Part shown: positions 1,467 through 34,528 of the stretch, piece after piece
How the letters are laid out: every line of letters starts with the position of its first letter
Position numbering within the stretch: the first letter of the stretch is position 1
Assembly: GCA_029934055.1 (NCBI GenBank)
Contig: JAOZMZ010000014.1
Coordinates: 1-34,543 of the forward strand
Length of the DNA stretch: 34,543 bases
DNA from: Kiritimatiellia bacterium
Lineage (GTDB): Bacteria; Verrucomicrobiota; Kiritimatiellia; B70-G9
Direction: 5' to 3'
Notes under the pieces: generated by a model
Told to the model about the DNA's origin: nothing
What the model saw: only the letters and a program-made list of their open reading frames with translations
The model's database searches: none
Made by a program: the position numbers and the translations under genes

Positions 1467-2030
1467 ATGGCCGACCACGTGCAGGAAAACAGCGGTGACC
1501 GACTGATGGTGGCCCTGGCGGACCACACGGCCTTTGTCCAGGTACACGGCCGCGGTTCCTTCAAGAACGCCCCGCCGCTGAAGGAATTCGGCGCCCTGGC
1601 CATAAAGGAAGGCATCCGCCGCTTCGTTCTCGACATGCGTGCCTGCCAGGGAATGGACAGCACCTTCATGGGGGTGCTCGCCGGGCTGGCGGTGCGCCTG
1701 CATCAGCACAACGGCGGGGAGATGGTGATGGTGAACCTCACGCCGCGCACGCGCGGCCTGCTTTCGACCCTCGGCCTGGATTCGATCATCACCACCCACA
1801 TGGCCGGGGAAACCCCGGCGGACATCGCCCGTTTCCTCGGGGCGGTACCGCCGATGCAGAGTCTGCCGCCCGAAAAGGACCGGCGCCGCACCACCGAAAC
1901 GATGATCGAGGCCCATGAAGAGTTGACCAAGGTCACCCCGGAAAACGCGCCGCGTTTCCAGGATGTACTCACATACCTGCGGCAGGAAATAAAGAAACAT
2001 TCCGGGGAGGGCACTGCAGGCGAGCCATAG
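1467..2030 (+). CDS. STAS-domain protein (anti-sigma factor antagonist-like) with C-terminal extension
   Basis: 187 aa; STAS-like segment FVLDMRACQGMDSTFMGVLAGLAVRLHQHNGGEMVMVNLTPRTRGLLSTLGLDSII with a potential phospho-acceptor Ser/Thr after D; adjacent to PP2C phosphatase and STAS/ATPase genes. Confidence 0.8.
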   Translation: MADHVQENSGDRLMVALADHTAFVQVHGRGSFKNAPPLKEFGALAIKEGIRRFVLDMRACQGMDSTFMGVLAGLAVRLHQHNGGEMVMVNLTPRTRGLLSTLGLDSIITTHMAGETPADIARFLGAVPPMQSLPPEKDRRRTTETMIEAHEELTKVTPENAPRFQDVLTYLRQEIKKHSGEGTAGEP

Positions 2031-2044
2031 CCGCGAGGCGAACA

Positions 2045-3484
2045 ATGTTTACACTGCATGCCATAATCTCCACGGTCATTGAACTGTTGATGGCCGTGGC
2101 CCTGCTGATCCTGATTGTGCGCATACGCCACCTGCGCGTTCTCTACGACGAACTTTCGCAGGAAAAAGAGGTCATGTTCGGCTTCATCCACGATATCGCC
2201 GAAGTCTTCGCCGACGCCGACACGGTGGATATGGATCTCATGCTGCGCCGTGTACTCTTCTATGCCATGCGTACCACCCGCGCCGGTGCCGGCGCGGTCT
2301 ATGTACTCGACCACGACGGCGTCCTGCGCGCGCGGGCCCTCTCGGGTCTCTTCCCGCCGATGTCCCCGGAGGCCCCCGATACGACCGCCCAGGCTGCCAG
2401 CAAGGCACACTACGTCGAACAGCTCGCCCGCGCCGAGCGTATCCATGTCGGCCAAGGCCTGGTGGGCACGGTCGCCGATCTCGGACGGCCGATCCTCATC
2501 GAAGACGCCGAACGCGACCCGCGCGTTCCCCGCTACAAGGATGAATACCTACGGATCCACTCGGTCCTCATGGTACCGATGCGCTTCCATGACCGCATCC
2601 TCGGCGTGCTGGCCGTAGTCAACCGTGTGGATGGACGCCCCTTCATTCAAACCGACCTCAATCTTCTCGAGGCCCTCGCCGACCAGGCTTCGGTCTCGAT
2701 CCACTTCGCCCAGTTGCGGGAAGCCCTCGAGGAAAAACGCCGCATAGATCACGACCTCGACCTCGCCCGTCATATCCAGGGGGCCCTCCTGCCGAAATAC
2801 ATCCCGACTCTCGAGGGCATCCAGCTGGCGGCCTTCAACGATCCGGCCCTTGAAGTCGGCGGGGACTACTACGACTTCGTCCCGGTGGACGACGACCACG
2901 TCGGGCTGGTCATCGCCGACGTTTCGGGCAAGGGTATCAGTGGGGCAATTATGATGAGTGTCTGCCGCAGCGTGCTGCGCTCGCAGGCGCGCGGCTGCCA
3001 GCACCCGACCGAAGTCCTGCGGGCGGTCAACCGCTTCATGTACGAGGACATAGCCGAGGACATGTTCGTCAGCATGCTCTACATGGTCTACGATATCCGC
3101 TCGCACCGCCTCCTGATCGCGCGAGCCGGACACGAACGCCCCCTACTGTACTCTCCGGCGGATGACCGCTTCACGATCCTCGATTCCGGCGGCATTGCGC
3201 TGGGAATCGGGCCGGCCGACAACTTCGACCGCCTCCTGGAGGAAAAGGAATACGAACTGCATCCCGGCGACGTCCTGGTGGCATACACGGACGGAATCAC
3301 GGAGGCCATGAATCCCGGCGGCGAAGAGTGGGGCCTCGACCGACTTACCGACGCCATCCGCTCCGCCGCTCCGGAAGGCGCCCCCGCCGTAATTGACAAC
3401 GTCCGCCGCCGCCTGGCCCGTTTCGTCGGCGAATCGCGCCAATATGACGATATGACGTTGCTTACAATGCGGGTCTTGAAGTAA
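2045..3484 (+). CDS. GAF domain + PP2C/SpoIIE (RsbU-type) serine phosphatase
   Basis: 479 aa; N-terminal TM segment, GAF region (GQGLVGTVADLGRPILIEDAERDPR), then LARHIQGALLPKYIP, VGGDYYDFVPVDDDHVGLVIADVSGKGISGAIMMS, GDVLVAYTDGITEAMNPGGEEWG, QYDDMTLL: classic SpoIIE phosphatase motifs. Confidence 0.93.
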   Translation: MFTLHAIISTVIELLMAVALLILIVRIRHLRVLYDELSQEKEVMFGFIHDIAEVFADADTVDMDLMLRRVLFYAMRTTRAGAGAVYVLDHDGVLRARALSGLFPPMSPEAPDTTAQAASKAHYVEQLARAERIHVGQGLVGTVADLGRPILIEDAERDPRVPRYKDEYLRIHSVLMVPMRFHDRILGVLAVVNRVDGRPFIQTDLNLLEALADQASVSIHFAQLREALEEKRRIDHDLDLARHIQGALLPKYIPTLEGIQLAAFNDPALEVGGDYYDFVPVDDDHVGLVIADVSGKGISGAIMMSVCRSVLRSQARGCQHPTEVLRAVNRFMYEDIAEDMFVSMLYMVYDIRSHRLLIARAGHERPLLYSPADDRFTILDSGGIALGIGPADNFDRLLEEKEYELHPGDVLVAYTDGITEAMNPGGEEWGLDRLTDAIRSAAPEGAPAVIDNVRRRLARFVGESRQYDDMTLLTMRVLK

Positions 3485-3525
3485 TATGTGAATTGGTGCA
3501 GGATTAAGATTCACTGGAGCGACCG

Positions 3526-3876
3526 ATGAGGGAATGCGTCATACAGAGAGAAGAACGGGGAGACCTGGACATCCTCCATCTCGACGGATCGCTGGACGCC
3601 TATTCTTTTCCCCGCCTCGAGGGAGCCCTCAACAACCTGCGTGAAGACCAGCGCAACCGGGTCATCCTCGACTGTTCGGGGCTGGACTACATCAGCAGCG
3701 CCGCCCTCGGCGCGCTGATCGGTTTCGCCCGGCGCGCGCGTGAAGACAACGGTGACCTCCGCCTGGCGAAACTCTCGGCCAAAATCTACAACATCGTCGA
3801 ACTGTTGGGATTTCACAAGATCCTCCAGATCTATGACGACGTCGAAACGGCCGTGAAAAGCTTCGAAGCCGCCTGA
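3526..3876 (+). CDS. STAS-domain anti-sigma factor antagonist (RsbV/SpoIIAA-like)
   Basis: 116 aa; VILDCSGLDYISSAALGALIGFARRARED motif with conserved SS phosphosite. Confidence 0.9.
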   Translation: MRECVIQREERGDLDILHLDGSLDAYSFPRLEGALNNLREDQRNRVILDCSGLDYISSAALGALIGFARRAREDNGDLRLAKLSAKIYNIVELLGFHKILQIYDDVETAVKSFEAA

Positions 3877-3897
3877 AGACAATCAAAGGAGGCCGGG

Positions 3898-4359
3898 ATG
3901 CAGCACCAACGAACATCGCCGGACGTCACTGAATATGTCCAGATCCAGATACCGCCTCGTTACAGTTACCTGCGCATCGTCCGCCAGTCGGTCAGGGACA
4001 TGTGTGTCCAGGCGGGCATCTCGGAATTCAAGGCCGCCCAACTGGAGATGGCCGTGGACGAAGCCTGTTCCCAGATCATCGAACATCTCTCACGTGCCCG
4101 CCCGGCGGATGGTGGATCGCAGCTCTCACTCGATATCCTGCTCTCCCTCTTTCGTAACCGCGTGGAAGTCGAGCTGCGCCATCCCGGCGATCCGCTGGAC
4201 ATATCCGGCGAACAGGAGGTTCCTCCCGAGGAATTCGCCCGTCATCCCGCCGACAAGGCCGGCTTGGCGGTATACGTCATCAGGCGCTTCGTGGACGACG
4301 TTCAGTACGGCCCGGACGAAAGCGGCCTGCACTGCTTGCGCCTGATGAAAAAAATCTGA
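3898..4359 (+). CDS. RsbW-like ATP-binding (GHKL) anti-sigma regulatory protein, degenerate nucleotide-binding motifs
   Basis: 153 aa; LEMAVDEACSQIIEHL (N-box-like), VEVELRHPGDPLD (G1-like), GLAVYVIRRFVDDVQY (G2-like), in the genomic context of STAS/PP2C genes. Confidence 0.8.
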   Translation: MQHQRTSPDVTEYVQIQIPPRYSYLRIVRQSVRDMCVQAGISEFKAAQLEMAVDEACSQIIEHLSRARPADGGSQLSLDILLSLFRNRVEVELRHPGDPLDISGEQEVPPEEFARHPADKAGLAVYVIRRFVDDVQYGPDESGLHCLRLMKKI

Positions 4360-32502: not shown

Positions 32503-33753
32503 ATGAAGCCCACGACCATACGACGCCTTGACGCCTTTCTCGGCACCCCCCTGTGTCTCCTGCTGACCGCCCTGCGCCGCCTCGCCGCCCCCCTGAGGCG
32601 GACTCCCGCCCGGCGGCGGCCGCACAAGATCCTTTTCATCAAGATGACCGAGCAGGGCGCCGTCGTTCTCGCCGCCGGGGCGATCCGAAAGGCCGCCCAC
32701 ATGGTCGGGACTGAAAACGTCTATTTTCTCGTTTTCGGCGAAAACCGACCGGTAGTCGACGTGCTGGGCCTCATTCCATCCCAGAACGTGATCGAAGTCC
32801 GGCATGATTCAGTACCCGTGTTCATCGCCGATGTCCTCGCCGCCCTCCGCCGGATACGGCGCCTGCAGGTAGACACCGTGGTGGACCTCGAGTTCTTCGC
32901 GCGCGCCTCCGCGATCCTGGCATTCTGCAGCGGCGCGAGCCTGCGCGCCGGCCACCACCCCTTCCACGGAGACGGCCCCTGCCGCGGGGATCTGATGACC
33001 CATCGTGTCGCTTACAACCCCCACATCCACACGGCCATGACCTATGTGGCCCTGGTCGAATCCCTGAAGTACGACCCGGCCATAACCCCGCTCCCCAAGA
33101 TTCCCGCCGCCGAACTTGAAGAGGCGCTCGTTCCCCCGCGCTTCGAGCCCTCTGCACAAGAGACCGGCGCCGTGCGGAAACTGCTCGAAACCGTCGGCGG
33201 CCGGCAACCTTCGCCACCCATCATCATCCTCAATCCGAACGCCAGCGACATGCTTCCACTGCGGCGCTGGCCGCTCGCACGCTTCGTCGAGCTCGGACGG
33301 CTGATCATTGATCATTATCCCTCCGCGACCCTCGTCGTCACCGGCCAGGCACACGAACGTGCGCAGGCGGATGATCTCGTCGCCGCAATCGGCTCGCCGC
33401 GCTGTCTCAACCTGGCCGGACGGACGAGCCTCAGGGAACTGCTGGTGCTCTTCGCAAACAGCCAGCTCCTCGTGACCAACGACAGCGGCCCGCCCCACTT
33501 CGCCTCGATGACGGACATTGACGTGGTTGTCCTTTTCGGGCCTGAAACACCACGGCTTTTCGGCCCGCTGGGAGACAGGATTCACGTACTGACGGCGGAC
33601 CTGGCCTGCAGTCCGTGTGTCAACGTCCGCAACTACCGCGCCTCTCCATGCCGGCGCAATGTCTGCATGGAAGCGATCAGCGTAACCGCCGTCTACGAAC
33701 GCGTGCGCACGATCCTTGCCGCGCGCGGGTTCCCCTCCTCCTCCCTTCCCTGA
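32503..33753 (+). CDS. glycosyltransferase family 9 (heptosyltransferase-like)
   Basis: HKILFIKMTEQGAVVLAAGAIRKA, FFARASAILAFCSGASLRAGHH, ILNPNASDMLPLRRWPLARFVELGRLI, LAGRTSLRELLVLFANSQLLVTNDSGPPHFASMTDIDVVVLFGPETPRLFGPLG. Confidence 0.93.
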   Translation: MKPTTIRRLDAFLGTPLCLLLTALRRLAAPLRRTPARRRPHKILFIKMTEQGAVVLAAGAIRKAAHMVGTENVYFLVFGENRPVVDVLGLIPSQNVIEVRHDSVPVFIADVLAALRRIRRLQVDTVVDLEFFARASAILAFCSGASLRAGHHPFHGDGPCRGDLMTHRVAYNPHIHTAMTYVALVESLKYDPAITPLPKIPAAELEEALVPPRFEPSAQETGAVRKLLETVGGRQPSPPIIILNPNASDMLPLRRWPLARFVELGRLIIDHYPSATLVVTGQAHERAQADDLVAAIGSPRCLNLAGRTSLRELLVLFANSQLLVTNDSGPPHFASMTDIDVVVLFGPETPRLFGPLGDRIHVLTADLACSPCVNVRNYRASPCRRNVCMEAISVTAVYERVRTILAARGFPSSSLP

Positions 33754-33769
33754 ATGCCCGGCCACAATT

Positions 33770-33972
33770 TTCCAATGCTTGGGAAAACTTGTAGAAAAAC
33801 TTCCAACCATTGGAAAAAACATGCGGGAAAACTTCCAATCATTGGAACTTTCCCGTCAAAAACTTCCAAACATTGGAAATTTCAAACCGCAAAACTTCCA
33901 ACCATTGGAAAAACTTATAGTAAAACTTCCAATCATTGGAAACTTCCCTTCAAAAACTTCCAAACATTGGAA
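33770..33972. repeat. phased array of near-palindromic units, consensus AAAACTTCCAANCATTGGAA
   Basis: intact 15-mers at 33801, 33833, 33864, 33896, 33927 and 33958, plus a degenerate inverted unit at 33770-33785; start-to-start spacing 31,32,31,32,31,31. Confidence 0.95.
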
Positions 33973-34012
33973 GAATTGCGGGGCGGGAATATTCTCACCT
34001 CCGGCGGAACCC

Positions 34013-34528
34013 CGCAAAGGAAGAATGATGCACGCTGCATTCCCTCATCCCGGACAACAACCATCAACAATCAACGATCAACTGTTATCCACTCCGTCCC
34101 TTCGCGTCCTTCGCGTGCTCCGCGAGAGAAGAAAAAGAAAAACCTCTCGCAAAGAGCGCAAAGCCCGCAAAGAAGAGAGAAGAAGGGAGAATATCTCGCA
34201 AAGTCCGCAAAGCACGCAAAGGAATCTCTCATCCCCTAACAACCCAACAACTCAGCAACCGGCAACTCTCCCCTCCGTGTGCTTCGTGTCCTTCGTGGTA
34301 AAAAGAAAAAGAAGAATCTCTCGCAAAGGTCGCAAAGATCGCAAAGAAAAGACGATTAGATCAGAAAGAAGCCGCACCAAGATCCCAAGGCACGCAAAGG
34401 AATCTCTCATTTCCCAACAACCCAACAACCCCATCCGCTGACCTCCCTGGCCGACGTAGCCTTGGCGTAGTCGGCCGACCTCCGTCTTCTCCGTGGTAAA
34501 AAAACGGCCTCTCGCCAGGAGCGCAAAG
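34013..34528. repeat. 9-bp-periodic CGCAAAGNN triplet repeats and complementary pyrimidine-rich arms
   Basis: CGCAAAG at 34148/34157/34166, 34197/34206/34215, 34322/34331/34340, single copies at 34013, 34393 and 34522; CTTCGCG/CTCCGCG at 34100/34109/34118 and CTCCGTG/CTTCGTG at 34273/34282/34291. Confidence 0.93.
34212..34430 (+). repeat. ~41-bp direct repeat pair (34212-34253 and 34390-34430)
   Basis: GCACGCAAAGGAATCTCTCATCCCCTAACAACCCAACAACTC versus GCACGCAAAGGAATCTCTCATTTCCCAACAACCCAACAACC. Confidence 0.9.

Follow-up and report, generated by a model that had tools for sequence, protein, structure and literature searches.

Our results describe an array of 15-bp palindromes in helical phase, located downstream of a GT9 gene in the window (the whole stretch of 34,543 nucleotides that was analysed), as one member of a motif family with a class-wide distribution, the class being, judging by its named relatives, probably Kiritimatiellia. 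On balance, we lean towards the reading that these arrays are cooperative sites of a putative homodimeric DNA-binding protein, which would organize the chromosome locally and limit transcription run-on.

The array and its surroundings

The array is real and exact, and its units lie where the earlier note had placed them. Six intact palindromes (TTCCAANCATTGGAA) match exactly on the plus strand, corresponding to unit 1 (TTCCAACCATTGGAA, 33801–33815), unit 2 (TTCCAATCATTGGAA, 33833–33847), unit 3 (TTCCAAACATTGGAA, 33864–33878), unit 4 (TTCCAACCATTGGAA, 33896–33910), unit 5 (TTCCAATCATTGGAA, 33927–33941) and unit 6 (TTCCAAACATTGGAA, 33958–33972). They are preceded by a degenerate seventh copy on the minus strand (unit 0, TCCCAAGCATTGGAA, 33770–33784), which carries one mismatch and stands 31 bp ahead of unit 1 and in phase with it, so that the successive spacings are 31, 32, 31, 32, 31 and 31. 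Allowing up to three mismatches, the matches numbered 16, where 1.54 were expected, a count that 100 shuffles never reached. The units are separated by linkers of 16 or 17 bases (33785–33957) of a few recurring types (AAACTTRTAG-, -TTTCAAACCGCAAAAC and -YTTCCCKTCAAAAAC); furthermore, Tandem Repeats Finder recognized a 94-bp period, equal to about three units, on the plus strand at 33796–33972 (1.9 copies, 89% matches), which represents an internal expansion.

The GT9 gene upstream (32503–33753, plus strand) was upheld by a match to PF01075 (E 3.8e-24); it is context and not part of the element, and its stop codon lies 16 bases before the first unit. A coding role of the array was rejected, in keeping with the earlier note, as the two open frames across it match no Pfam family; its units fall in differing frames. 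The AAAAC flank holds for the window's genome, with the consensus AAAAC-unit-GTTTT, whereas in other genomes the flank is merely T-rich or A-rich. The array is followed by a tail at 33973–34019 (GAATT...CTCC.CCGGCGGAA...CGCAAAG) that resembles, in a side-by-side reading, the tails of arrays L191 and L199. Beyond it, the contig end (34090–34543) is filled with other short repeats, in which stretches of AACAACCCAACAAC alternate with runs of (CGCAAAGNN)n and of CTTCGCGTCCTTCGCGTGCTCCGCG-like sequence, and similar blocks also adjoin arrays L191, L199 and L201 of the same genome. At the other end of the window, four open frames (1467–4359) were read by eye as a STAS protein, a GAF/PP2C phosphatase, a second STAS protein and a serine-kinase-type ATPase, i.e., a partner-switching signalling cluster.

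The array is distinct from a CRISPR in its 15-bp units and in its linkers of 16–17 bp, which recur among arrays, and no cas-like genes were noticed among the open frames of the window in an unsystematic look. In the two same-family genomes searched for an orthologous array behind the GT9 gene, no close orthologue of the gene was found, the nearest homologues being 26–38% identical. Nothing relevant on the motif, or on palindromic repeats in these bacteria, was found in the open-access literature.

Copy number and distribution of the motif

A genome-wide search of the window's genome (2.2 Mb in 115 contigs) revealed about 111 exact copies of TTCCAANNNTTGGAA, including several arrays of which the one in the window is a member, against 0 for a reversed-pattern control. 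When all 6-3-6 palindromes were compared in five sampled genomes, TTCCAA was the top half-site by a wide margin, with 61 against at most 3 for any other. In a set of 289 genomes from the phylum, tens to 1,339 copies were found in many members of the window's class (controls 0–2), and genomes outside the class displayed 0–5 copies, which corresponds to background. Within the class, copy number ranged from 0 to 3,017 per genome, the densest genome found being G292 (3,017 copies in 6.7 Mb), and congeneric genomes held from 3 to more than 1,000 copies; G053 and G151 carried 58 and 183 copies, and the complete genome G081 about 567, spread around the chromosome. Most of the genomes compared are MAGs.

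Further, a public genome collection was scanned for pairs of palindromes at most 30 bases apart. Among the matches listed, records corresponded to Kiritimatiellae/Kiritimatiellia, Lentisphaerae, Verrucomicrobia, uncultured bacterium and a few oddly named bins. Array-bearing contigs binned under the names Firmicutes, Prevotellaceae and Candidatus Limosilactobacillus (L063, L037/L043 and L126) may reflect binning contamination, and the Candidatus Limosilactobacillus bin had a single copy (central base G or C) genome-wide. The rumen MAG contigs L043 and L037 contain arrays with a 22-bp period in which variants such as TTCCAAGTCATGGAA stand between TTCCAAGCATTGGAA units, suggesting a related but shifted specificity. 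In 2.9 million viral contigs, only 4 stretches held a pair at three turns; the three viral contigs with phased pairs (L303-L306) may correspond to host flanks or proviruses.

At the end of the window, as well as in contigs C1, C5, C13, C14, C18, C34, C48, C63, C64 and C65 of its genome (G000), arrays lie within about 100–500 bases of contig ends. This position suggests that the assembly broke at the arrays and that the figures for copy number and array length are probably too low; arrays in these genomes seem to break assemblies and to yield spurious open frames.

Helical phasing and in-phase partners

The distances between exact sites fell at 20–22, 30–33, 41–44, 53, 63–64, 75 and 94 bp among the matches listed, where spacings of 23–29 and 34–40 bp, though permitted by the scan, were absent. 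With degenerate partners included, the peaks go on at 52–53, 62–64, 73, 83–84, 93–95 and further. Over the range 18–130 bp, the best period was 10.4–10.5 bp in three of five data sets, and the phase was significant even without the 29–34 window, in the window's own genome (R 0.86), in G293 (R 0.62) and in the pooled loci (R 0.54, p ~1e-35). For G292, 10.5 bp was not the best period because nearly all of its pairs lie 32 apart, and G081, which has few partners, displayed no significant phase past those at 31/32. The arrays of the rumen MAGs mix steps of 22, 30 and 31 and retain the phase.

Partners were near-obligatory in three genomes: an in-phase copy with up to three mismatches lay 31–33 bp away from 99/102 exact sites in G293, 190/198 in G292 and 51/55 in the window's genome, and at the out-of-phase offsets of 25–27 bp no exact site had a partner. 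The exception was G081, where just 7/46 sites had a partner at 31–33 bp; as its sites are mostly single, and two thirds of them lie within genes, arrays are not obligatory. The sites were picked by exact match, so that the conservation of the palindrome is partly a product of data selection, a bias that the in-phase partners and the comparisons between orthologous loci reduce but do not remove.

Conservation between species and copying within the genome

Between G293 and G291, which belong to one genus, three orthologous gaps with flanking proteins 76–95% identical have kept their palindromes, exact or slightly degenerate, while the linkers have diverged, and the number of units varies (five versus two in one case). 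One more gap was discordant and the others were without arrays in both species, such that these comparisons are few, with 3 shared arrays and 1 discordant.

Within the window's genome, the linkers of 16 or 17 bases, 50 in all, fall into a few recurring types, found in consistent order and in both orientations, with a mean identity between arrays of 58–61% against 30–36% in shuffles. The shared linkers, the tails shared with two other arrays and the duplicated 94-bp block indicate that whole arrays were copied and expanded. Spacings of 31 and 32 alternate in 27 of 34 successive steps in this genome; given the block copying, this alternation is partly inherited and does not constitute independent evidence of selection.

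Position relative to genes

Genes were called with a purpose-written coding-potential finder, which recovers the GT9 gene and its neighbours and whose calls are approximate. In G292, 19 convergent gaps measured 40 bp or more, and 17 of them held arrays, as did about half of the tandem and divergent ones; across five genomes, convergent position had an odds ratio of 2.7 (z 3.4), with little effect of gap length. Distances from stop codons were short, many sites beginning within 15 bases of the stop. Sites thus prefer the 3' ends of genes and convergent gaps. None of 61 sites lay inside a gene in the window's genome, and those of G292 were mostly extragenic; in G081, 31 of 46 were in genes, in all three frames. 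The genes flanking the largest arrays displayed no common theme. A conserved autoregulated gene in low-copy genomes was also considered and rejected, as the remaining copies adjoin unrelated genes.

Alternative explanations

The palindromes could fold as RNA hairpins, the array being then a terminator or a stabilizer of mRNA 3' ends, close to the multi-hairpin 3' UTR that the earlier note had listed. A unit with its flanks from the window's genome folds at -10.2 kcal/mol, sites lie directly past stop codons, and intrinsic terminator-like sites were rarer after genes with an array (7/142 versus 26/213, p 0.02), although this test is weak and biased by the masking of half-sites in the array class. 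However, complementarity between symmetric flank positions within genomes was no greater than shuffles predict (z -3.1 to 1.4), several symmetric flank pairs in the window's genome were complementary less often than chance, and the linkers and flanks of unit pairs displayed no covariation, a lack that makes RNA hairpins unlikely. The symmetric consensus TTTTCCAANSNTTGGAAAA is explained by independently read half-sites of a putative dimer. Furthermore, the spacing tracks the turns of the DNA helix, divergent gaps hold arrays as commonly as tandem gaps, sites also occur within genes, the stems are A+T-rich, and an Rfam search gave no match above gathering scores. Terminators with a G+C-rich stem and a T-run had one minus-strand match in the region, under the shuffled mean of 3.2. 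A hairpin formed by two paired units was also rejected, the central bases of the pooled loci having no bias towards complementary pairs (55 versus 56) and the linkers lacking covariation, although in G292 complementary central pairs were favoured about 2:1. Taken together, the 3' UTR proposal is disfavoured, and we consider RNA hairpins improbable.

A more serious competitor, which we still regard as unlikely, is a selfish repeat, belonging with REP/REPIN or MITE elements, that a transposase or recombination would have copied around the genome and that would be devoid of cellular function, for which gaps behind genes are the places where insertion harms least. The linkers and tail common to arrays at unrelated loci of the window's genome, the great differences in copy number among congeners, the preference for 3' ends and convergent gaps, and the many arrays at contig ends would all fit such a repeat, and the motif shares with REP/BIME and REPIN elements short palindromes, high copy number, extragenic location near 3' ends and lineage specificity, the extragenic location applying to the window's genome and mostly to G292, but not to G081. 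Nevertheless, helical spacing with unrelated linkers in other genomes, near-obligatory in-phase partners and palindromes kept amid diverging linkers require a force acting on the sites. Most REPs are marked by a GTAG/CGTC tag (PMC3733652), and neither tetranucleotide was present as an end tag in the unit and flank consensus of the sampled data sets. A RAYT/REP origin was likewise rejected: three genomes that carry the motif (the window's, G053 and G151) had 0 matches to PF01797, and RAYT number was uncorrelated with the motif (rho 0.22, p 0.08). The motif differs from REP/REPIN elements in its constant helical spacing, the missing tag, the lack of stem covariation and the dispensability of RAYT. 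Alternatively, the motif could be a genome-wide signal that is read site by site, for instance in DNA uptake or as a tag for self-recognition, with arrays as extra copies; the chromosome-wide, mostly single and often intragenic copies of G081 would suit it, as would the rarity of three-turn pairs in viral contigs, but sites in G292, G293 and the window's genome are paired in phase almost without exception, which speaks against it, and we find it very improbable. Clustered repeated palindromes also resemble, judging from the sequence, operators and iterons, and the array might accordingly serve this one locus alone, as the operator of a single gene or as a replication/partition site. The motif, however, reaches 3,017 copies per genome, its neighbouring genes are unrelated and its copies are dispersed around a complete chromosome, a distribution that largely refutes this reading and makes it extremely improbable.

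Phased sites for a putative dimeric protein

We therefore return to the phased sites of a dimeric protein. That the array is of the operator type and phased for such a protein, as the earlier note had put forward, is well supported by helical spacing in many genomes and by the absence of flank covariation. Of its suggestion of a nucleoid, partition or replication site, the nucleoid (architectural) part survives, whereas replication and partition are disfavoured by the dispersal of copies around the chromosome and next to unrelated genes. Each 15-bp palindrome, with an extended consensus of approximately TTTTCCAANSNTTGGAAAA, would take one dimer; dimers two, three or more whole turns apart would share one face of the helix and could touch, such that two or more units would assemble cooperatively into a single nucleoprotein complex, probably wrapped or bent. 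These complexes would be mainly intergenic, mostly right after stops and between convergent genes, where they may organize the chromosome locally and curb transcription passing from gene to gene; in the window's genome, the arrays have propagated in whole blocks and have also grown internally. One point against this model is the range from 3 to more than 1,000 copies in one genus, which is odd for an essential architectural system.

Among known systems, the matS (MatP), SlmA and Noc sites are dispersed short palindromes for a dimeric protein, which occur singly, in tens of copies and regionally. The motif resembles them in being a dispersed short palindrome, and both it and the Noc sites are TTTCC/GGAAA-flavoured, but it differs in forming phased arrays and in reaching thousands of copies. 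The DNA uptake sequences of Neisseria and Haemophilus, with hundreds to thousands of copies often located after genes, are comparable to the motif in copy number and post-gene position; unlike it, they are not self-palindromic and form no helically phased arrays.

The closest resemblance in geometry is to Lrp-type regulators, which wrap DNA and bind clustered palindromes of 13–17 bp spaced by two or three turns (PMC2995911, PMC10201364). As with Lrp/AsnC proteins (FFRP; e.g., Ss-LrpB, BarR and E. coli Lrp), whose dimer-bound palindromes are clustered on one DNA face, the arrays combine a 15-bp unit with spacings of 21–22 and 31–32 bp. However, the Kiritimatiellia sites are near-perfect, number up to thousands and lie at the ends of unrelated genes, in contrast to the usually degenerate Lrp sites, and their central base is G or C, whereas Lrp sites are AT-rich at the centre. 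An Lrp/AsnC protein is disfavoured as the cognate binder, since the family is near-universal in the class (PF01037 in 22/22 motif-rich and 41/46 motif-poor genomes, p 0.17), a similar HTH occurs in motif-free relatives and no motif lies beside the gene; genomes of the class carry one or few Lrp-family genes. The likeness to Lrp clusters would be one of working, and does not make the arrays Lrp clusters.

More broadly, we propose tentatively, as something possible rather than probable, that Kiritimatiellia have a chromatin-like system, specific for sequence, in which an undescribed dimeric protein would bind cooperatively along one helix face, at hundreds to thousands of phased palindrome pairs and arrays, and act as a boundary-marking transcription insulator or a chromosome scaffold. 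If true, this would constitute an unusually clear example, among bacteria, of an architectural protein with sites legible directly from sequence. The motif lets the putative protein be fished directly, and close relatives, whose copy numbers run from none to thousands, offer a natural experiment on the role of the system.
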